This document shows, in pieces, positions 13,219 to 64,000 of a stretch of 64,000 bases of DNA. The stretch lies in contig NZ_CP146612.1 of the NCBI RefSeq assembly GCF_037094495.1, positions 1,302,001-1,366,000 of the forward strand, written 5' to 3'. How positions within the stretch are numbered: position 1 is the stretch's first letter; the number at the start of each line of letters is the position of its first letter. Below the pieces are notes generated by a model. That model made no database searches. It worked only from the letters and a program-made list of their open reading frames with translations, and had not been told where the DNA came from. The position numbers and the translations under genes were made by a program. The stretch comes from Dehalogenimonas sp. W (GTDB lineage Bacteria > Chloroflexota > Dehalococcoidia > Dehalococcoidales > Dehalococcoidaceae).

Positions 13219-14030
13219 ACTGACTGCAGTATATTTTTCATATCCTGCGCATTCCGGGGCGCGTAAGCCTGCCAGTGATTATTAAAAAAGGCGTACACGG
13301 TATGACCCTGAGCGGCGGTTCTAACCTGTTCCGTCAGCAGTTCAATCTCCGGTTCTGAATAGAGATAACGGTATCGGGTTTCATTGTTGCCGGTCCACCA
13401 GTCGGCGGCGTTGCGGCCGTGAAACCGGAAATATGCCAGGCCGGAGGTCAGCGGCAGGTTGCGGGCGATGGAAGAGCTGAACTGCGGTTCATCAATGTTG
13501 ACCCAGGCGGCACCGGCTTCTGACAGCATCCCCGCCATAGCCGCATCATCACTCCAGCTGCGATGCCGCAGCTCTATTGCCAGCGGATAGTCGCTGAAGG
13601 TGTGCAGTACCGCCTGCAGTAGTTGTTGCCCCTGAGGAGTGTTTTCAAAGCCGGCCGGGAACTGTGCCAGCACCGCGCCCAGTTTGCCGGCCTGGTGCAG
13701 CGGCCGGATGCCGCGGGTGAACTGTTCCACATCATCCCGGCAGATGACGGCTGTCTCGCCGGTGGCCTTTTCAAACATCCCGGGATGGGTGAATTTCTGC
13801 CACAGCTTGGCGGTGAACTTGAAATCATCCGGAGTTTTACGCACCCAGCTTTCGGCATACGCCGGGTTGACCGGGGCGTAGAAGGAACTGTTAATCTCCA
13901 CGCAGTTAAAGGCCTGAGCATAAAAACCCAGTTCGTTACGGGTGCCCGGCGGGTAAAAATATCCGTTCCAGGTGCCCTCGCCGCGCGGGTAGCTCCAGCC
14001 GGAAGTGCCGATGTAAATATCGCCGGTCAT
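13203..14030 (-). CDS. DUF72 (YecE-like) TIM-barrel protein
   Basis: Matches the DUF72 family: GTSGWSYP near the start, a FYPPG and VEINSSFY region, then TPDDFKFTAKLWQKFTHP and a terminal region with YFRFHGRN and YAFFNNHW. The biochemical role of the family is not established. The proposed start is ATG 14030 (MTGDIYIGTSGW), where family members begin; the frame stays open to a TTG at 14087. The C-terminus (LQSVDSSQ) is encoded by the heptad array, so repeat expansion may have replaced the original end. It is divergent from lexA, and its 5' region adjoins the lexA operator, so SOS co-regulation is possible. Confidence 0.8.
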   Translation of the reverse strand: MTGDIYIGTSGWSYPRGEGTWNGYFYPPGTRNELGFYAQAFNCVEINSSFYAPVNPAYAESWVRKTPDDFKFTAKLWQKFTHPGMFEKATGETAVICRDDVEQFTRGIRPLHQAGKLGAVLAQFPAGFENTPQGQQLLQAVLHTFSDYPLAIELRHRSWSDDAAMAGMLSEAGAAWVNIDEPQFSSSIARNLPLTSGLAYFRFHGRNAADWWTGNNETRYRYLYSEPEIELLTEQVRTAAQGHTVYAFFNNHWQAYAPRNAQDMKNILQSVDSSQ

Positions 14031-54602: not shown

Positions 54603-56309
54603 TCACGTCCGTTTGAAATGGCGTTCCAGCGCAACGGTTTCCAGCTTCATCAGGGTGGGGCGGCCGTGGGGACAGGTGTTGGGGACTTCCGCCTTCTCCA
54701 AATCCAGCAGCAAGGCCCGTATTTCCTCCTGGGTCAGGCTTTTGCCGGAGCGGACGGCAGAATGACAGGCGATGAGTTCGGCCAGTTTTTCCTCGCCGCG
54801 GGTACGGGATTCCGGGGAATTGAGAAACTCATGCAGCGCCGTGAGCCAGTCACTCCCGGCCAGGGCCGAAGGCACCGCCCGGACCAGCAGCGTGCGGCCG
54901 CCGAAGTCCTCAGTGACGAAACCGAATTCTGCCAGCATTTTGGACAGTGCGGTCACGACGGCAGCTTCCGCCGGACTGAGTTCAACGTTCCGCGGTTCTA
55001 AGAGCGCCTGGGAGGCCGGAGTGTGGTTTTGCCGCGCCGTCAGTACCTTTTCGTACATGATGCGTTCGTGCGCGGCGTGCTGGTCAACGATATATAAACC
55101 GTCCGGCCCCTCGGCCAGAATATAACAGCCGGCCACCTGGCCGATGGCCCGGAGGGCCGGTAAAGACCGCGCCACGGTCATGCCCGATGCGGGCAGCGAC
55201 CGGGCAGGGGCGGCGGTTTCCGGAAACAGATTTTCCACAAAGGGCTTCATATCCTGCCGATAATCAGATGGCCGATAAAGCGGTACCGGTTCGCCGATAA
55301 CCGGCACCGGGGATTCACCGATCAGTGCCGAACGAACAGATTGACGCACGAAATTGAAGATACGGTTATCCTGATGAAATTTTATCTCGGTCTTGGCCGG
55401 ATGGATGTTAATGTCAATGTCTGCCGGCGGCAGGGTCAGATTGATGACGGCCACCGGATAACGACCTACGGTGAGCAGGCCGTGATAAGCTTCTTCTACT
55501 GCCCGGCTGAGCATGGGGCTTTTCACCCAGCGCTGGTTAACGAAGAAGAACAAGCCTGTGCGGTTAGCCCGGCCGGCATCAGGCGGCGCAGCCAGGCCGG
55601 AAACCGACAGCGACTCAGCGGCGGCTTCAACATCAATCATGCGGGAGGCCGTTTCCCGCCCCAGTATCTCGGCAGCGGTATCCCGTAATTGACCGGTGCC
55701 CGGCGTGTTCAAAGAGCGGCGGCCGTCAACGGTAAGGGTAAAACGCACCTCCGGCCGGGCCAGGGCATAGTTGCTGACTACGTTGACGATATGGCCGGTT
55801 TCAGTGGCATCTGTTTTCAGGAATTTCAGCCGCGCCGGTACCGCTTTGAACAGGTGGGAGACACTGATGCTGGTGCCGCGGGTGCGGGCGGCGGGTTTGT
55901 CGGATGTCCGGCCGTCGCGCCGGATGACTAAACACCCCGAAGGGGCATTGGCTACGGCGGTTAAAAGCTCTACGTCGGCTACGGATGTAATACTGCCCAG
56001 CGCCTCGCCGCGGAAGCCCAGGCTCATGATACCGGTCAGGTCATCAAAAGAAGTTATCTTGGAAGTGGCGTGGCGGGTAAAAACCAGCGGCAGATCGGCC
56101 GGGGCGATGCCGCAACCGTCATCGCTGACCCGGATAAGGCCGGTGCCGCCGCCTTTAATCTCAATATCCAGGTTCCGCGCTCCGGCATCCAGGGCGTTCT
56201 CAATAAGTTCCTTGACCACTGACGCCGGACGCTCCACCACCTCGCCGGCGGCGATACGGGCGACGGTTTTTGAGTCCAGCAGTTTGATAGGCACAGTAGG
56301 ATTGTACAT
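54603..56309 (-). CDS. mutL: DNA mismatch repair protein MutL
   Basis: A 568-residue MutL. The GHKL ATPase motifs are RIAAGEVVERPASVVKELIENALDAGA, DDGCGI and GFRGEAL (residues about 15-110). The C-terminal endonuclease motif is DQHAAHERIMYE, and the metal-binding ends include ACHSAVRSGKSL and CPHGRPTLMKL. So it is a nicking-type MutL as in bacteria without MutH. No mutS gene is in the window. Heptad repeats lie immediately upstream, and no clear ribosome site is seen at ATG 56309. Confidence 0.93.
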   Translation of the reverse strand: MYNPTVPIKLLDSKTVARIAAGEVVERPASVVKELIENALDAGARNLDIEIKGGGTGLIRVSDDGCGIAPADLPLVFTRHATSKITSFDDLTGIMSLGFRGEALGSITSVADVELLTAVANAPSGCLVIRRDGRTSDKPAARTRGTSISVSHLFKAVPARLKFLKTDATETGHIVNVVSNYALARPEVRFTLTVDGRRSLNTPGTGQLRDTAAEILGRETASRMIDVEAAAESLSVSGLAAPPDAGRANRTGLFFFVNQRWVKSPMLSRAVEEAYHGLLTVGRYPVAVINLTLPPADIDINIHPAKTEIKFHQDNRIFNFVRQSVRSALIGESPVPVIGEPVPLYRPSDYRQDMKPFVENLFPETAAPARSLPASGMTVARSLPALRAIGQVAGCYILAEGPDGLYIVDQHAAHERIMYEKVLTARQNHTPASQALLEPRNVELSPAEAAVVTALSKMLAEFGFVTEDFGGRTLLVRAVPSALAGSDWLTALHEFLNSPESRTRGEEKLAELIACHSAVRSGKSLTQEEIRALLLDLEKAEVPNTCPHGRPTLMKLETVALERHFKRT

Positions 56310-56311
56310 GA

Positions 56312-56360
56312 GAAGGCAGGCAGTTGTCAGTAGTCAGTTATCAGTTGACAGTTCGCAGTT
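56312..56360 (+). repeat. Heptamer repeats between mutL and the histidine kinase
   Basis: About seven CAGTNNT-type units (CAGTTGT, CAGTAGT, CAGTTAT, and so on) fill the whole 50-nt gap between the two genes. Same family as at 13.1 and 52.2-53.4 kb. Confidence 0.65.
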
Positions 56361-56361
56361 G

Positions 56362-57717
56362 TCAGGTTTTGGAGTTGACCGGCAGGGTCACGGTAAAGGT
56401 GGAGCCTTTACCCAATTCGCTTTCCACCTCCACCCGGCCGCCGTACATCAGGGTTATGCCCTCAACGATGGGCAGCCCCAGCCCGTTGCCCTCGGCGTGG
56501 CGGTCAACCCGGTAGAACCGCCAGAAGATCTTTTCCAATTGGTCCGGCGGTATGCCGCGGCCCGTGTCCGCCACGGTAATCGTTATCAGCCCGCTGCTTT
56601 CCGTCATGGTAAAGGTAACGCCGCCCTGACTCGTCGCCTTCACGGCGTTTTCCAACAGGTTGTCGACGATGCGCTGGAAGTCCAGCGGTTCTCCAGTCGT
56701 TTCTATATCCGGCTGGATTTTATGTGTAAGCGTAAGTCCCCTGGCGGCGCAGGGCGCCTCCCAGTTGGTGAGGATTTCTTCTATGAGGCTGGAGAGGTCA
56801 AAGGGGGAGTTTTCCTGGTCGGGTACGGTATCCAGGCTGGTCAGCGTCAGCAGGTCTTCCACCATGGACTCCATCTGCTCCGTGTCTTCCTCTATGGAGC
56901 GCAGCGCCTCCCGATAGTAGTCCTTCGGCCTATCCCGCTCCAACGCCAAAGATGTCTGTGCCTTGATGTTGGTCAGCGGTGCCCGCAGGTCGTGGGTGGC
57001 GTCCTCGGTGAACCGCCGCTGGCGGTCAATGAAGCCGTGGATGCGGTCAAAAGCGGAATTCAGTGTCCCGGAGAGCTGCCCCAACTCATCGTTGCCCCTA
57101 ACCGGTATGCGGTCAGTCAGCTTGCCGGGGTCAATCCCCTCAGCGGTCACCCTGATTGCCTTCACCTGCCGTAATGAGTGGTTAGCCAGGGCGTAACCGG
57201 ATGCCCCGGCGATGATGAGGGCGAAGGGAACGGATCCGTAGAGGACGTTCTTGTATTGGTCCACGGTACTGCCGATGTAGCTGGAGTCACGCGTCACCAC
57301 CAATAACTTGCCAGGGGATGATTCGTTGTACGGCCCGATACACAATTGCCGGCCGTCCAATCCCTCTTTGAACTGAAAACCAGTACCAAGTGTGGTGAAA
57401 CCTGACAGCGAAAGACGAACGTCATCAAGTAACGACGGGTTACCCATGAGGGTTTCTGTTTCAACGTTGTAGATGAAAAGCGAACCCGGAACCTGGACTT
57501 CCAATTCGTTCAGCATCTCGGGAAGTTCTTCATTGCCGCTGATGAATATGGAAGACTTGACTCTGTTAAAATCAACGATCAACGATTCATACAGGTTATC
57601 ATGTAAGCCCGAGGATAACAGCGCCAAAGATATCCAGCCGAACGTTGCCAGCGTGACCACCAGAACGACGGAATAAATAACCGTCAGCCTGAATTTAACG
57701 CTTTTCAACCAGTTCAT
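56362..57717 (-). CDS. Sensor histidine kinase
   Basis: A 451-residue membrane kinase: membrane helix 1 (about 10-35), an extracytoplasmic domain (about 36-158), helix 2 (about 160-180) and HAMP. The H box has H242 (FTEDATHDLRAPLTNIKAQ), followed by N (DNLLENAVKAT), G1 (VADTGRGIP), F and G2 (GNGLGLPIVEGI) boxes. It is of the extracytoplasmic-sensing, EnvZ/CusS-like layout, not PhoR with a PAS domain. The start is ATG 57717, overlapping the stop of the response regulator (ATGA). The signal is unknown; its likely targets are the secreted-protein genes to the right. Confidence 0.9.
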   Translation of the reverse strand: MNWLKSVKFRLTVIYSVVLVVTLATFGWISLALLSSGLHDNLYESLIVDFNRVKSSIFISGNEELPEMLNELEVQVPGSLFIYNVETETLMGNPSLLDDVRLSLSGFTTLGTGFQFKEGLDGRQLCIGPYNESSPGKLLVVTRDSSYIGSTVDQYKNVLYGSVPFALIIAGASGYALANHSLRQVKAIRVTAEGIDPGKLTDRIPVRGNDELGQLSGTLNSAFDRIHGFIDRQRRFTEDATHDLRAPLTNIKAQTSLALERDRPKDYYREALRSIEEDTEQMESMVEDLLTLTSLDTVPDQENSPFDLSSLIEEILTNWEAPCAARGLTLTHKIQPDIETTGEPLDFQRIVDNLLENAVKATSQGGVTFTMTESSGLITITVADTGRGIPPDQLEKIFWRFYRVDRHAEGNGLGLPIVEGITLMYGGRVEVESELGKGSTFTVTLPVNSKT

Positions 57718-58388
57718 GGAATTTTCAGCCTGTAGCCTTCTCCACGAATGGTCTGGATCGGGCCGGTTCCGGCATTCCAGCCGAGGCGCCGGCGCAACCT
57801 CTTGATGAGAGAGTCCATGGTGTTGGAAACGTGGTCTGTCTCTCCGCCCCATACATGCTCTTCTATCATTATCCGTGTAAGCACCCTTCCGGGGTGGGTG
57901 ATAAAGTAGTCCAGCGCCCGGTACTCCATGGCAGTCAGGGCAACAAGATTTCCGTCAGCCGTGACTTCATGCGTCACTGTATCAACCGTGACCCCGGAGA
58001 TCTCCACAACGGTTTGTCCCCCATTGGCCTGTCTTCTTTGCAGAGATCGGATGCGCGCCTTTAGCTCGGTTATAGAGAACGGTTTGCACAGATAATCGTC
58101 GGCACCGGCGTCCAGTCCCTCAATGCGGTGCCCGATGTGTGTTTTAGCTGTCAGCATGAAGATCGGTGTAGTCATGCCCTGTTTTCTTAAGATACGGCAG
58201 ACATCGGTGCCGGAAATCTCCCCCGGCAGCATCACGTCCAGAATGAGGAGATCAAAGTTTGAGGTTTCGGCGTACAGCAGCCCGGATTCGCCTTCATCAG
58301 CCAGTTCTACAATGTGCCCCCCATCGTTTAACCCCCGTTGGATCAACCGGGCGAGTTTGAGGTTATCTTCAACCAGCAATATCCTCAT
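57714..58388 (-). CDS. OmpR/PhoB-family response regulator
   Basis: A 224-residue regulator. The receiver domain has acidic residues E7-D8, phospho-acceptor D51 (LLILDVMLPG), T/K switch residues (MLTAKT) and the DDYLCKPF segment. The winged-helix output domain (TAMEYRALDYFITHPGRVLTR; VSNTMDSLIKRLRRRL) is of OmpR type. Such proteins bind direct repeats of about 7 bp every 11 bp, exactly the pattern found upstream of the divergent gene at 58500 and at 61.2 and 63.2 kb. It is co-transcribed with the kinase. Confidence 0.92.
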   Translation of the reverse strand: MRILLVEDNLKLARLIQRGLNDGGHIVELADEGESGLLYAETSNFDLLILDVMLPGEISGTDVCRILRKQGMTTPIFMLTAKTHIGHRIEGLDAGADDYLCKPFSITELKARIRSLQRRQANGGQTVVEISGVTVDTVTHEVTADGNLVALTAMEYRALDYFITHPGRVLTRIMIEEHVWGGETDHVSNTMDSLIKRLRRRLGWNAGTGPIQTIRGEGYRLKIP

Positions 58389-58428
58389 TTACAAAACACT
58401 TTCGTACTACCTAAATCTTAGCTTCGGC

Positions 58429-58462
58429 CTGTCATAATTCTGTCAGGTTCGGGTGCTATTAT
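58429..58462 (+). promoter_or_regulatory. Pho-box-like direct repeat and -10 of the 58.5-kb gene
   Basis: CTGTCAT-AATT-CTGTCAG (58429-58446) is almost the E. coli Pho-box consensus. A TATTAT -10 follows after exactly 10 nt (58457-58462), and the repeat replaces the -35. The site lies in the divergent gap next to the response-regulator gene and may also control that gene. Confidence 0.65.
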
Positions 58463-58499
58463 GGGACAGGTGAAAATGATTACAACCTGGAGGTGTGAA

Positions 58500-59168
58500 A
58501 TGAGAAACCTGATCTTGAGTCTGTGTGTCTGTATGTTGCTGGCCGTTCCGGCACCAAAGATCACCTCCGCTGCTTCCTCCTCGGAAAATTACACCCTTGA
58601 GCCTCCTATTGTCAACAGTACCAAAGATCAGCCCAGAACCCCGTCCGAGATTGAGGCCGCCCACCCCATGTCCGCGGAGGCGGAGGCCGCCATAGTCCAC
58701 GTTGTCCCGCAATGCCCGGTCATCATTGACGGTGTGTGGTATACGGCTGAGCAGATCAACCTTTTCGATGGACAGCGTCTTCGGTTCACCGTGGATAAAG
58801 CAGGCGTTCTTTACGCTTTCACCACTGTGGAAGATTTTGAGTATTTCATACAAAGCGAGTACGGACGCGTTTTTGACGCGTTACCAGACATGGGTACATC
58901 TTCAACCGGCTTGACCGTTTCATACTTGCATACAGATATGTGGTACGAGGGGGGAGTGCCTCTCGTCGTGGTTCCCGGGGGCAAATTGGAGTACCTGGGC
59001 GTGTATAACAATGCCATTTCATCGGCAAAAATAAGCGACACACGTGGCGTCATGCTTTATGAATATGAAGCGTGTATGGGTTCCTCTTATTACTTACCGC
59101 CTGGCACCGTTTGGTCAATGCTCATTTTCCAAGGCTGGAACGACCGGGCTTCTTCTCTTCAGGGATAG
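58500..59168 (+). CDS. Secreted protein of unknown function
   Basis: A 222-residue protein with a clear signal peptide (about 1-24, LILSLCVCMLLAVPAPKITSA) and a mature part rich in Tyr, Val and acidic residues, probably all beta. There are only two cysteines after the signal (HVVPQCPVII and YEACMGSS), which could form a disulphide. The start is ATG 58500 behind GGAGG. I do not recognise the family. It is the first gene under the Pho-box-like promoter, divergent from the two-component genes, so it is likely a direct target of that regulator. Confidence 0.55.
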   Translation: MRNLILSLCVCMLLAVPAPKITSAASSSENYTLEPPIVNSTKDQPRTPSEIEAAHPMSAEAEAAIVHVVPQCPVIIDGVWYTAEQINLFDGQRLRFTVDKAGVLYAFTTVEDFEYFIQSEYGRVFDALPDMGTSSTGLTVSYLHTDMWYEGGVPLVVVPGGKLEYLGVYNNAISSAKISDTRGVMLYEYEACMGSSYYLPPGTVWSMLIFQGWNDRASSLQG

Positions 59169-59328
59169 GGGAATAACCAAGTCCGTTACCTCCGTAATGA
59201 GGCGCCGGCCGGAAGGAGGAGCCGAGATGAATGTATAACGGTTCTCGCAGCGTGGCCTTTACATGGGACGAAAGAAAAGGTTCCCAAACGGCAGTCAAAG
59301 GTCTAAAATAAACGAAAGGAAAACTCAA

Positions 59329-60429
59329 ATGCAATTCAAGAAACGGTTTCTAATGGTTTTCATGTCCCTGACGCTTCTAGTGGGGATGCTGGGTGGGGGG
59401 GCCCCGTTCGTACAAGCGCAGGAGATGGTTAACAGCAAAACGGGTGCCTATGAATTTTCAGTCAAGCCGGGCACCGAAGAATGGAAGCGGTTCCTCAATT
59501 TCGATGAAATGCTAGAAGCGTGCCAAGTGCCTGAAGAGATATTGAAAAATATGTCAACCACAGCATTAGTGGAAACAGTTTTAAATTACCCACTGTTACG
59601 TGTTTACATGGCACATGATGACTTTCAGCAAGGGTTTGAGATTCTAACCTCCAATTTTAATGGTTTGCAAGAATTGTTTAATCGCTACAATGCAGGTACC
59701 GAGGTTTTCCAAATATACCTTGCGATGGATCCTTCATCGATCAACAAAGAATGGACCGATGTCCAGAAAGGTTCATATGCTCTCAGTTTTCTGGATATTG
59801 AAATGTTGCTTTTCCAAGAGCCGATCCTCACAAGCTTAACTGCCATTGAACTCCAGATGTTGGAAATAGAGGCTGGGAATAAGAACCGATTGATGCAAAA
59901 TAACCCAGAGGTGTATAGCCTTTTTAATAGACAGATCTGTGCATCTCTCCTTGAGCAAGCATGCAACCAATACTCGAATAGATATTATGGTACGTCTGTA
60001 TATACACCGATGGGTAGTGCCGTTGCGGCCCTACAAATGCAACCAGGAGATGAGCTTAGCCCGGCAGAGATAGCTTCCATAAACGCGTATTATGATTCTG
60101 CTTTCCCATACGCAACAAGAATGAAAAGTGCAACACGGATGTATAACTGTCACTCCTATGCTTGGTATAGTCAGGAATGGGGAAATACGATATGGATAAA
60201 TGCGCCTAATCAGGCGACATATTGGAATGATGGCAGTTATAGTCAATGGACCGGGGTGCCCTATGTGAACCTAAAGGTAAGATATGTTAATGATGATCAT
60301 TCCGCAATAATATACTCGACGGTGAATCATCAATACATATCGAAATGGGGCGCGGCCGGTTTATACACACACAGTCCCAGCCACTGCCCATACGTATCTA
60401 CAACACTTTACTATTATTCCAGAAATTGA
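59329..60429 (+). CDS. Secreted protein with C-terminal Cys/His (papain-like?) domain
   Basis: A 366-residue protein with a signal peptide (about 1-30, cleavage after VQA), a helical middle region (about 60-225) and a distinct C-terminal domain. That domain contains C274-H275 (MYNCHSYAWYSQEWG), then H324 in VNDDHSAIIYS and KWGAAGLYTHSPSHCPY. The C...H order and the HSAI motif recall NlpC/P60- or CHAP-type amidases, and similar NCHSYAW domains exist in secreted Firmicute proteins (recollection). Peptidase or amidase activity is an inference. The start is ATG 59329 after GAAAGG. It is followed by a hairpin. Confidence 0.5.
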   Translation: MQFKKRFLMVFMSLTLLVGMLGGGAPFVQAQEMVNSKTGAYEFSVKPGTEEWKRFLNFDEMLEACQVPEEILKNMSTTALVETVLNYPLLRVYMAHDDFQQGFEILTSNFNGLQELFNRYNAGTEVFQIYLAMDPSSINKEWTDVQKGSYALSFLDIEMLLFQEPILTSLTAIELQMLEIEAGNKNRLMQNNPEVYSLFNRQICASLLEQACNQYSNRYYGTSVYTPMGSAVAALQMQPGDELSPAEIASINAYYDSAFPYATRMKSATRMYNCHSYAWYSQEWGNTIWINAPNQATYWNDGSYSQWTGVPYVNLKVRYVNDDHSAIIYSTVNHQYISKWGAAGLYTHSPSHCPYVSTTLYYYSRN

Positions 60430-60452
60430 CCAAAAAGATAACGCGACAGACC

Positions 60453-60477
60453 GGAGGTGGAGGCAATTTCCACCTCC
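60453..60477 (+). terminator. Terminator-like hairpin
   Basis: GGAGGTGGA, 7-nt loop, TCCACCTCC, 24 nt after the stop of the 59.3-kb gene. No T-run follows. It may be attenuating, since the next gene has no separate promoter that I can see. Confidence 0.45.
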
Positions 60478-60515
60478 AGTTTGCGGAACGTAATAGAGAA
60501 TTGCTAGGAGGGCAA

Positions 60516-61019
60516 ATGAAATCCCAATTCATGCCAAAACGGATTATCCTAATTCTGTTAATTGTTTCTCAGCTGACAATGACACTCGTTGGCTGTAGCG
60601 CTTCAGAAAGCAAGGGGGGGTTCAGTGTTATTTTGGCAGATACTGGTGAATCCCTGCTGACCGAAAGTGACATTAAAGCTTACCATGCTGACACTAACTC
60701 TCTCGAACTCAATACGTCCGGAATCAGCAAGTGGAATTCACAGCTGATTTATCAGGATGCCCCCAAGTTAGAAGACAGTATGTTTGGCCGTGAATTCATT
60801 ATCGAGATTGAAGGTAAAGAGGTCGGTAGAGGCAAACTTTGGTCGAATGCTTCTTCTTCAACATTCCTAGGACTGGTGATTCTTGATGCTCTCGGAAGAC
60901 TAGATAACGCCAATAATACTCTTTGGATCCAATCAGGTTATCCTAATACCGGGACATTACCCCCAACAATAAGTTCTGAACTCATCCGATATTTTGAAAA
61001 GCAGGATAAAATAAAATAG
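60516..61019 (+). CDS. Putative lipoprotein of unknown function
   Basis: A 167-residue protein from ATG 60516 (ribosome site TAGGAGGG). It has a lipoprotein signal with lipobox TLVGC (Cys about 27) and a small alpha/beta mature domain. No known family is recognised. It lies between two other exported proteins in the region controlled by the direct-repeat promoters. Confidence 0.5.
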   Translation: MKSQFMPKRIILILLIVSQLTMTLVGCSASESKGGFSVILADTGESLLTESDIKAYHADTNSLELNTSGISKWNSQLIYQDAPKLEDSMFGREFIIEIEGKEVGRGKLWSNASSSTFLGLVILDALGRLDNANNTLWIQSGYPNTGTLPPTISSELIRYFEKQDKIK

Positions 61020-61208
61020 TATAGTTTACCCAGAATACTGGGGCCGGAACGCGAAGTTTGGATTATGGGAAAAAAGCATCAGATCATGCTGGAATATGCC
61101 ATCCATGGCCCCCCTTCGATTCTTCGACAGCCCGCGCATTATTTGAGTAACAGGATTACGGGGATAAAAAAGCAAAGAAATAAAAATAACCGTAAAAACA
61201 GACCCGTT
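61020..61208. other. Intergenic region before the lipoprotein duplication
   Basis: No gene is seen in this 190-nt stretch, only AT-rich sequence and no convincing hairpin. It ends at the direct-repeat promoter of the 61.3-kb gene. Confidence 0.4.
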
Positions 61209-61242
61209 TATTCATCTCCTGTTCATGTTGGGGTGATATAAT
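61209..61242 (+). promoter_or_regulatory. Direct-repeat operator and -10 of the 61.3-kb lipoprotein gene
   Basis: TATTCAT-CTCC-TGTTCAT (61209-61226), 10 nt, TATAAT (61237-61242). Same geometry as at 58429 and 63220. Confidence 0.6.
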
Positions 61243-61280
61243 CCGTAACAATAGGAATGATCAAACGTGGAGGCATCACA

Positions 61281-61787
61281 ATGAAATGGCATAAACTCAT
61301 ACCGGCGGCATTACTGACCATAATACTGACAACCGGCCTTTTGACCGGCTGTGCGAAGGTGGAAGCCGACCAGCCATCAGGACTCGTGGTCAATAGCCTT
61401 TCATATTCGATCGGCAATGTTGACGGGGATCCGGAGAAACCGGTCAAGATCTCATATTCCCTTTCGATCCAGAACAAAAGTAAAAGCGACATTTTCATCG
61501 GCAGAGTAACCCCCGTTATATCCGGGCCTGGGAATGATCTTATCCTGACCCAGACCGATGATTTTGACGCAAACACCAAGTTGGCCCCGGATTCTTTTGC
61601 TAATATCAACGGGGAACTGATCCTGGATCCCGGCTACACCGGCATGACGAAGGAAGATATGAAATGTTTAATGCCGAAGACTACAGAGTCCAAGGTATCG
61701 GCGTTCGCCATATATGGTGGAACGATGGGTATGCACGAGGCGTTCAATATGGAAGCACCGGATAGGAGGAGTGACGGTGAGTCGTGA
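61281..61787 (+). CDS. Lipoprotein, paralogue of the 63.3-kb gene
   Basis: A 168-residue protein with a lipoprotein signal (LLTGCAKVEA). The beta-sandwich-like mature region begins LVVNSLSYSIGNVDGDP and continues VKISYSLSIQNKSKSD, which suggests an extracytoplasmic Ig-like or FxLD-type domain. It is about 85-90% identical over most of its length to 63290-63742, but the C-terminal 40 residues differ. Its 3' end overlaps a small membrane-protein gene. The family is unknown to me. Confidence 0.6.
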   Translation: MKWHKLIPAALLTIILTTGLLTGCAKVEADQPSGLVVNSLSYSIGNVDGDPEKPVKISYSLSIQNKSKSDIFIGRVTPVISGPGNDLILTQTDDFDANTKLAPDSFANINGELILDPGYTGMTKEDMKCLMPKTTESKVSAFAIYGGTMGMHEAFNMEAPDRRSDGES

Positions 61788-62088
61788 TCTCGGAATGGCA
61801 CTAATGGTACTTTGCGGATTGGCTGTCTCATTACTTTCAATCCTGCTAGCAAATTGGTTAGGAGTGATTGTTGGAGGGGCTTTTCTGATTTCAACAATCG
61901 GATCTCTGATATGGAAACACTCGGGACCAAAATATGCAATTGGAACGGGTTTGATAGTACTAAGTTGGTCCATAGTATTTTTAGCTACAAACTACGAAGC
62001 GACATCTATTTACGGCCTTGCCGGAGTAATTGTAACTAGTTTGTTTACGGTGGGGGCTTTTTTCACCTACCGTGATCAAAACAAATAA
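61777..62088 (+). CDS. Small three-helix membrane protein
   Basis: A 103-residue protein starting at GTG 61777, fixed by GGAGG 7 nt upstream, inside the last 11 nt of the lipoprotein gene. Three hydrophobic helices (about 6-28, 30-47 and 52-100 in part) end in a short charged tail (TYRDQNK). Function unknown; coupled to the lipoprotein. Confidence 0.55.
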   Translation: MSRDLGMALMVLCGLAVSLLSILLANWLGVIVGGAFLISTIGSLIWKHSGPKYAIGTGLIVLSWSIVFLATNYEATSIYGLAGVIVTSLFTVGAFFTYRDQNK

Positions 62089-62101
62089 GGCAAGTTGCCC
62101 C

Positions 62102-62518
62102 ATGGGAAATGCATGGGCGGCGACCGGGCTCGCCATAAGCACGGATCCTTGGAGTTTTGGGGAATCTCACAACATTGATATCAACCTGCTCGGGTATACA
62201 GGATGGGCAATGATGTCAACTTGGTTTTGGGATATTGGTACTTTTGCAGTTACATATAATATTTACGATGTAACAGGTGGGTATTATGTAGATAGTCGGA
62301 CACTGTATAGCAGAGAATTTGCTATTGTCTTCCAAGAAGATACTCCAATCTACGGATCAATCAACACAACACTACAGGCTGATCGTACATACCTAATATT
62401 CCTGCATGCCTACATTGATGCCAGCGCTTCGGACATGACAAGCTTTTCGCAGTCTTGGTCAAATGGGCCCGACTATTACACTACTTGGTCTATGATCGAA
62501 CTCGCCTACAACAATTAA
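62102..62518 (+). CDS. Beta-rich protein of unknown function, possibly 5'-truncated
   Basis: A 138-residue frame from ATG 62102 (or GTG 62072, overlapping the previous gene). The sequence (TGWAMMSTWFWDIGTFAVTYN; YGSINTTLQADRTYLIFLHAYI) looks like a secreted beta-sandwich, yet neither start gives a signal peptide or a good ribosome site. Either the N-terminus was lost or it is fed by coupled translation. A strong hairpin follows. Confidence 0.4.
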   Translation: MGNAWAATGLAISTDPWSFGESHNIDINLLGYTGWAMMSTWFWDIGTFAVTYNIYDVTGGYYVDSRTLYSREFAIVFQEDTPIYGSINTTLQADRTYLIFLHAYIDASASDMTSFSQSWSNGPDYYTTWSMIELAYNN

Positions 62519-62540
62519 CGTATTTGTAATTTAAGACAAT

Positions 62541-62586
62541 ACAATATCCAAGAGAGGGTTAATATTGACCTTCTCTTGGATATTGT
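62541..62586. terminator. 18-bp hairpin after the beta-rich gene
   Basis: ACAATATCCAAGAGA plus GGG (with one G-T pair) and its complement around a 10-nt AT loop. Very stable, but not followed by a T-run. Confidence 0.5.
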
Positions 62587-62620
62587 ATATAAAAATCAAG
62601 GTTTGAAACGAGGTATTCTG

Positions 62621-63070
62621 ATGAAGTACGGATTAGGCGAGATTATTCTTATAATTGCTCTAATCGGACTTGTTGGAGTGCGGGTATTCCTTTACGCACT
62701 GGGATCATTGCACAAGAAAGAATCAGGTAAATATGTGACGTCTAAGGGAACGATACATATCCCCAAGGTTGATCTGGACAGAATCCCGACATCAAAAAGA
62801 GTCCAAATTGAAACAATGCCGATTGAAAAACAAGTTGCTTTCCTGGACGAATATTTGTGGCGGACGAAGAACCTGCCCGAGGCATATCTTCATTGGGCGT
62901 TTTTCGGGATGCATTATACCTATCTGGTAAGAGATGATCTCCAGTTTCGCTACTGGCTGACACTTGGCGGGTTGCTGGTTTGGGCGGTCATTGATTTATT
63001 CAGGATGCCTGAGATGGTCATGGCATATAATCTTAAACTTGTTGACCGAGTGTTAAAAGAGTTGGGATAG
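62621..63070 (+). CDS. Small membrane protein of unknown function
   Basis: A 149-residue protein from ATG 62621 (GAGG 8 nt upstream). It has an N-terminal membrane helix (about 7-27), a soluble charged middle (HIPKVDLDRIPTSKRVQIE), a second hydrophobic stretch (about 113-130, FRYWLTLGGLLVWAVIDLF) and a short tail. No family recognised. Confidence 0.5.
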   Translation: MKYGLGEIILIIALIGLVGVRVFLYALGSLHKKESGKYVTSKGTIHIPKVDLDRIPTSKRVQIETMPIEKQVAFLDEYLWRTKNLPEAYLHWAFFGMHYTYLVRDDLQFRYWLTLGGLLVWAVIDLFRMPEMVMAYNLKLVDRVLKELG

Positions 63071-63219
63071 TGCCAACTGACGGGTTTATTCCCAATTTGT
63101 TTTCAGACACAGTACGAACGGTTTGTCGTCTGCTCCGGTGAGCCTCGCGGTGAAGGGTTTTAAGCTATTAGTTAGTAGCAATCTGTTTTAGGGAAAATAT
63201 TTTCCCGTAAAAACCGTTT

Positions 63220-63253
63220 CGTTCATCTCCCGTTCATGTTGGGGTGGTATAAT
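63220..63253 (+). promoter_or_regulatory. Direct-repeat operator and -10 of the 63.3-kb lipoprotein gene
   Basis: CGTTCAT-CTCC-CGTTCAT, an exact 7-bp direct repeat with 11-bp period (63220-63237), then 10 nt and TATAAT (63248-63253). It is the clearest example of the shared operator. Confidence 0.65.
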
Positions 63254-63289
63254 CCTAAAAATAGGAAAGACCAACGAGGAGGCATCGTT

Positions 63290-63742
63290 ATGAAATGGCA
63301 TAAACTCATACCGGCTGCATTACTGACCATAATACTGACAGCCGGCCTCTTAACCGGCTGCGCGAAGGTGGAAGCCGGCCAGCCATCAGGACTCGTGATC
63401 AATAGCCTGTCATATTCGATCGGCAATGTTGACGGGGATCCGAAGAAACCGGTCAAGATCTCATATTCCCTTTCTATCCAGAACAAAAGTAGAAACGACA
63501 TATTCGTCGGCAGAGTAACCCCCGTTTTGTCCGGGTCCGGGAACGATCTTATCCTGACCCAAACCGATGATTTTGACGCAAACACCAAGCTGTCGCCGGA
63601 TTCTTATGCCAATATCAACGGGGAACTGATTCTGGATACCGGCGACACCGGCATGTCCAAGGAAGAGATGAGTGCATCACTCAATATCACGGGGGTGGAA
63701 GTAGAATCCACTCTCATCCTTGGTCTTCCCGGCCAGGAATGA
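63290..63742 (+). CDS. Lipoprotein, paralogue of the 61.3-kb gene
   Basis: A 150-residue protein from ATG 63290 (CGAGGAGG upstream). The lipobox is LLTGCAKVEA and the mature domain is nearly the same as in the 61.3-kb protein, with a different C-terminal end (LNITGVEVESTLILGLPGQE). The duplication includes about 65 nt of promoter. It is likely regulated by the adjacent two-component system. Confidence 0.6.
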   Translation: MKWHKLIPAALLTIILTAGLLTGCAKVEAGQPSGLVINSLSYSIGNVDGDPKKPVKISYSLSIQNKSRNDIFVGRVTPVLSGSGNDLILTQTDDFDANTKLSPDSYANINGELILDTGDTGMSKEEMSASLNITGVEVESTLILGLPGQE

Positions 63743-63885
63743 CCGGATATCGTTCATTGTGGAAAAATACCTCAGAAAATACGAGCTGTCCCCGGACACC
63801 AGGGCACGCGCAGCGTGCTCCTACGGATAATACTTCAGGAAATGAGGTGTCCCCCCCACAGCAGGTGACGGCAGTATTTAACTGA
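63743..63885. other. Intergenic region with short palindrome
   Basis: No gene is seen. It contains a small REP-like palindrome (GCACGC-GCA-GCGTGC, 63804-63818) and two imperfect copies of a CAGAAAATACGAGCTGTCCCC-like segment (about 63772 and 63837). Confidence 0.4.
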
Positions 63886-64000
63886 TCAGGATTTAGACTC
63901 GCCAGTACCATACTGGTTCATGACGGTTTTTACTTCTTCTATGCGCTCCGGTTTCAGCATCGCTAATATTTTGGGAACAAAGCTTCCCAAGTATTCCACG
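63886..64000 (-). CDS. C-terminal end of an unidentified gene (cut by the window edge)
   Basis: A minus-strand frame enters from the right edge and stops at TGA 63886-63888. The last residues include VEYLGSFVPKILAMLKPE and EEVKTVMNQYGTGESKS. It looks like a helical protein end and is too short to identify. Confidence 0.4.
   Translation of the reverse strand, partial: VEYLGSFVPKILAMLKPERIEEVKTVMNQYGTGESKS

Follow-up and report, generated by a model that had tools for sequence, protein, structure and literature searches.

In Dehalogenimonas sp. W, three promoters next to a two-component system carry direct repeats which, in our judgment, are quite likely the operators of the neighboring OmpR/PhoB-type regulator and its close paralogs, and through which these proteins would activate a small envelope regulon. 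Related bacteria keep the same arrangement beside matching regulator genes, so that cell-surface proteins, and not the response to phosphate starvation, are very probably what this small switch controls. It is this comparative evidence, rather than the sites of the window (the whole 64,000-nucleotide stretch that was analyzed) by themselves, that carries the case.

Promoter sites and genes of the window

The first-pass annotation had placed repeats with an 11-bp period at 58429, 61209 and 63220, each 10 nt 5' of a TATWAT hexamer, and this was borne out to the base. The features of this region are as follows.

56362..57717, - strand: sensor histidine kinase with N-terminal TM segment, extracytoplasmic stretch, HAMP, HisKA and HATPase (Pfam, hydropathy)
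57714..58388, - strand: OmpR/PhoB-type response regulator, 224 aa, receiver and winged-helix domains (Pfam)
58429..58462, + strand: site 1, CTGTCAT (58429-58435) AATT CTGTCAG (58440-58446), GTTCGGGTGC (10 nt), TATTAT (58457-58462)
58500..59168, + strand: exported protein, 222 aa, conserved beside orthologous regulators
59206..59399, + strand: constant leader cassette (untranslated leader and signal peptide), DNA homology ending at about +70 of the ORF
59329..60429, + strand: exported protein, 366 aa, constant signal peptide followed by a mature part of no known family
60516..61019, + strand: putative lipoprotein, 167 aa, lipobox LVGC (sequence; no Pfam match)
61209..61242, + strand: site 2, TATTCAT (61209-61215) CTCC TGTTCAT (61220-61226), GTTGGGGTGA, TATAAT (61237-61242)
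61281..61787, + strand: lipoprotein, 168 aa, lipobox LTGC (sequence, Pfam search, paralog comparison)
63220..63253, + strand: site 3, CGTTCAT (63220-63226) CTCC CGTTCAT (63231-63237), GTTGGGGTGG, TATAAT (63248-63253)
63290..63742, + strand: lipoprotein, 150 aa, paralog of the 61281 product (paralog comparison)

As read from the sequence, two 7-bp repeats are separated by a 4-bp spacer (period 11) in all three sites, and the gap from the repeat end to TATWAT is exactly 10 nt in each and reads GTTxGGGTGN; the GTTxGGGTG that had been described as common to the gaps is thus exact in three of three. The TG of GGGTG lies one base 5' of the hexamer, so that each promoter has an extended -10 (TGN-TATWAT); none of the three has a -35 hexamer resembling TTGACA. 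Site 1 is divergent from the regulator gene. It had also been claimed that all three promoters precede exported proteins, and the ORFs 3' of the sites (58500, 61281 and 63290) indeed start with a signal peptide or lipobox. No exported protein of the window has a Pfam domain above cut-off, and an Rfam search of 56000-64000 gave no match to a riboswitch or other known RNA.

By its domains, the 224-aa regulator is a member of the OmpR/PhoB type (Pfam Response_reg, 6.8e-26, and Trans_reg_C, 1.8e-19, both above cut-off), and the putative 11-bp direct-repeat operator agrees with this assignment. In the kinase, TM1 was located from hydropathy and TM2 from its position before HAMP. The N-terminal extracytoplasmic region has no Pfam match, and the earlier description of the signal as extracytoplasmic, without further assignment, was fair. 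The protein encoded at 58500 has 40-58% identity to its relatives in the alignment. The C-terminus of these relatives is weakly similar to inhibitor I36 and crystallin domains, with a weak Pfam I36 match in five of seven family members, the window copy not being among them. For the 366-aa protein, no relative with a solved structure was found. A promoter and its lipoprotein gene are duplicated within about 2 kb (61209-61787 and 63220-63742); the mature parts of the two lipoproteins are 73% identical, and the DNA of their signal peptides is 94% identical.

The window itself offers limited statistics. Two occurrences of TTCAT-N6-TTCAT were observed versus 0.13 expected, and sites 2 and 3 are one event and not independent, because both precede paralogous lipoprotein genes. 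Site 1 by itself is not significant, since 0.68 occurrences of TGTCATN5TGTCA (with at most 1 mismatch) are expected in the window by chance. Across 27 aligned sites, the predicted activator box takes the place of the -35 element and its distance to the -10 is kept; in this alignment the row of site 1 is shifted by two letters, with column scores slightly lowered.

The motif in the host genome and in related bacteria

The host genome is a single contig of 1.77 Mb, with a G+C content of 0.52-0.53 in the regions read. A genome scan with the composite motif, proposed in the first-pass annotation, was carried out by pattern search (TTCATN6TTCATGTTGGGGTGNTATAAT, up to 3 mismatches) and yielded 7 matches versus 0 for the reversed control pattern. 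Together with two divergent variants, these matches make nine sites in three clusters (252-254k, 718-725k and 1360-1365k), every one of which has its own OmpR-type regulator/kinase pair. The nearest site lies 59 bp from the regulator gene in the window, 52 bp at 717k and 2829 bp at 257k, and the nearest site of each cluster is within 4.6 kb of one of the three related regulators (random placement, P <= 1e-5). The idea of a local regulon of the window pair is supported in that the repeats accompany an OmpR-type pair, but it was too narrow, as the motif occurs at two further loci; because each of these has its own regulator pair, cross-talk is possible. Genome-wide, the predicted targets encode exported proteins, lipoproteins (DUF6612 in one case) and small membrane proteins. 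An ABC-2 permease is also among them, together with an ATPase that NCBIfam matches best, though below cut-off, to a lantibiotic-protection transporter.

We searched eleven genomes of the family, and the strict motif was present in three of the eight Dehalogenimonas-like genomes, with no match to the reversed pattern. A looser motif also matches G010 and G001 and G002, the two Dehalococcoides genomes with a close relative of the window regulator, in each case adjoining a related regulator. No match was found in G004 and G009 despite a 43-44% identical regulator. Absence of the repeats upstream of orthologs had been named in advance as refuting their role; they are present at G007:453k (77% identity), at G008:1120k (65%), and in G001 and G002. 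The regions between the regulator and the divergent exported gene contain 11-bp TCA repeats, up to four consecutive ones in G001, G002 and G007:1526k. In nine such regions, 14 TCA pairs at spacing 11 were observed versus 0.54 expected (1000 shuffles, shuffle maximum 4), with further peaks at spacings 22 and 33. Within the clade of the window regulator (tree support 97/96), all eight members, Dehalococcoides included, carry 11-bp TCA repeats in the promoter that diverges from the regulator gene.

The site 1 region is better conserved than the flanking coding DNA: the segment from the regulator start to the -10 (58389-58462) is 89% identical at the G007 ortholog locus, versus 78% for the regulator gene (63% at third codon positions) and 52% for the exported gene. 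The near-textbook Pho box of site 1 is not kept letter for letter, however, since in this 77% ortholog the second half-site is CTGACAG and not CTGTCAG, a form that also allows an inverted-repeat reading. In G007 and G008, certain motif copies lie more than 10 kb from any regulator (L114, L120), and a transposase cluster adjoins one of the G007 copies (L115). At L114:10688-11959, the G007 counterpart of the 252-257k cluster, two putative operator sites and the target genes are kept, and a 423-aa ORF which is repeated elsewhere in G007 (probable transposase) occupies the expected place of the regulator and kinase. In G008, an ECF-type sigma factor gene is preceded by a motif-like site (L121:9965, - strand) whose nearest related regulator is 12 kb away.

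When 156 genomes of the order were scanned blind to regulators, five matched: the three Dehalogenimonas-like genomes with the strict motif, G043 and G144. The single G043 match has an imperfect first repeat, no regulator is present on its 3-kb locus, and it is probably a chance match. In G144, which belongs to a different family, both matches share one 6.7-kb contig (C32, L178) with an OmpR regulator gene. A further site, stronger than these two, is located about 70 bp 5' of this gene; the box is thus in the regulator's own promoter, which suggests autoregulation. Of the two other, divergent sites, one is 5' of the gene for an exported protein and the other 5' of a MacAB-like exporter operon. 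The same architecture was seen beside a sister regulator of another clade, G008:47k (GTTCAG-N5-GTTCAG), and the sister pair at G000:623k has GTTAA-type boxes divergent from and downstream of the pair, which may be a sister system with changed specificity. The GTTAA-type 11-bp repeats flanking the 623k pair (L130:8414, - strand, and L130:10590, + strand) have the same -10 spacing. As the letters vary with the regulator and the geometry is constant, the boxes behave like operators.

Predicted mechanism and alternative readings

Binding of a 7-bp repeat with a 4-bp spacer by tandem dimers of the OmpR/PhoB family is established (PMC4832192; PMC4415409). In our model, the kinase would read an extracytoplasmic cue, and the phosphorylated regulator would bind the two 11-bp units as a head-to-tail dimer. 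The bound regulator would most likely recruit RNA polymerase to the extended -10 promoter (TGN-TATWAT), because the box covers the -35 position, and activation by direct RNA polymerase contact would fit this placement together with the extended -10. The divergent exported protein would thereby be switched on, as would lipoproteins and membrane proteins farther along and, at the sister loci, ABC exporters. Our best guess for the cue, which we hold weakly, is envelope stress, because ABC exporters and lipoproteins are among the targets.

The letters of the boxes also bring to mind genuine Pho boxes of a PhoB-like regulon answering phosphate limitation, as site 1 comes close to E. coli CTGTCAT-N4-CTGTCAT, and the Streptomyces PhoP box, GTTCACC-N4-GTTCACC, is similar to sites 2 and 3 (PMC4415409, PMC4832192). 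However, the window regulator reached none of the NCBIfam equivalog cut-offs, with 191.4 bits on the PhoB model TIGR02154 against a cut-off of 296.2, and no phosphate gene was recognized among the predicted targets. Moreover, the phoU-pst operon of the host genome is located at 702-708k, about 650 kb from the window, and its promoter (G000:C1:707685-707722, L153) does not have the window box; it reads TTTAACAAAACCTTAACATGGCCTTAACA, a TTAACA array with an 11-bp period. As sequence matches to the array, similar TTAACA-type repeats occur in the other Dehalogenimonas genomes G005, G006, G007, G008 and G010. The TTAACA array is likely the genuine Pho box of the genus, and the window box would therefore be another thing. 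A response regulator at 710.8k, with 240 bits on the PhoB model (also below cut-off), is plausibly PhoB. The missed PhoB cut-off and the different pst box led us to reject a phosphate regulon as the main reading; the phosphate link suggested in the first-pass annotation is not supported, and we regard genuine Pho boxes in the window as very improbable.

A further question is which regulator binds which box. It is a distinct possibility, if an unlikely one, that a paralogous regulator (717k or 257k) mainly serves sites 2 and 3 and the window regulator only site 1, all within one cross-talking network. The boxes of the 720k locus are identical in letters to site 3 and nearly so to site 2, whereas site 1 reads GTCAT/GTCAG, and box letters vary with the regulator at other loci. 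On the other hand, the regulator nearest to both of these sites belongs to the window pair (2.8 kb from site 2 and 4.8 kb from site 3), and a TTCAT-type site is likewise present 3.6 kb from the 65% ortholog at G008:1120k. Regarding the mode of action, the box might be a repressor site and not an activator site: proteins of the OmpR family are able to repress a promoter that they cover, and a number of the -10 elements are extended and close to consensus. The -35 placement without a -35 hexamer of its own is, however, typical of activation, and we consider repression rather improbable. Finally, the boxes might be promoter DNA that was multiplied through duplication and has no role tied to a particular regulator. 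Sites 2 and 3 were duplicated along with their genes, 15-25 bp of upstream sequence are common to some distal sites, and transposase genes adjoin sites in G007. Yet the box is constant while the sequence 3' of the -10 and the genes differ, and the divergent boxes of Dehalococcoides and G144 are too diverged for recent copies but have the 11-bp period and the distance to the -10 intact, which leaves duplication by itself with hardly any credence. We thus prefer operators of the window regulator and its close paralogs.

Known systems and the constant leader cassette

Like the E. coli PhoB system, the window has two 11-nt direct units, a box just 5' of the -10 and an OmpR/PhoB-type regulator, but this regulator lacks a pst link as well as a PhoB-level score, and sites 2 and 3 read TTCAT. 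The units of sites 2 and 3 (TTCATC-, GTTCATG-type) have TTCA and the 11-nt period in common with the Streptomyces coelicolor PhoP box, whereas the window targets are exported proteins without assigned function and not phosphate genes. Operator geometry is also the same in Mycobacterium tuberculosis PhoP, of which a tandem dimer binds 7-bp direct repeats with a strict 4-bp spacer, but the letters and the regulon differ, and the likeness observed is one of geometry. Heavy-metal CopR/CusR-type regulators and RppA are among the best NCBIfam models for the window regulator (190-203 bits), all below cut-off (CopR/CusR model TIGR01387, 191.5 bits versus 279.2), and no metal genes were found among the predicted targets. 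In organohalide-respiring bacteria, two-component systems adjoin rdhAB of Dehalogenimonas (PMC13390414), and the Sulfurospirillum PCE regulator has a direct-repeat operator, CTATW-N17-CTATW (PMC7755780). Two-component control is common to these systems and the window, and a direct-repeat operator to the Sulfurospirillum system and the window; however, the window targets are envelope proteins and the operator is different.

No description of the window operator was found in the literature searched, and the operator of this Dehalogenimonas and Dehalococcoides regulator clade was apparently undescribed before. Both genera are used for chlorinated-solvent clean-up and are hard to manipulate; with this operator in hand, the regulon can be predicted, and footprinting alone is enough to test the prediction. 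In addition, the co-varying paralogous regulators and boxes offer a natural series for specificity change in OmpR-type proteins.

The exported genes at the regulator loci have a near-constant signal peptide (KKRFLMVFMSLTLLVGMMGGG) and an untranslated leader in common, and in the eleven genomes clear matches to this peptide were confined to these loci. The mature parts are mostly without detectable similarity, and in most pairs the homology ends about 70 nt into the ORF. For example, two G007 genes are 98.4% identical over 315 bp up to a point 70 nt into the ORF, beyond which they are completely different. Such a pattern resembles an exchange of domains behind a leader that stays the same. Tentatively, and with some doubt, the loci might be two-component-controlled sites of surface-protein diversification, at which a constant cassette with regulator-matched promoters has been joined repeatedly to unrelated mature domains. 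The pattern of constant leader and variable protein is unexplained and merits a separate study. Besides the window (59206-59399), leader cassettes were located at L122:10145-10459 and 13527-13841, L116:4132, L118:6726 and, in two genes, L119.
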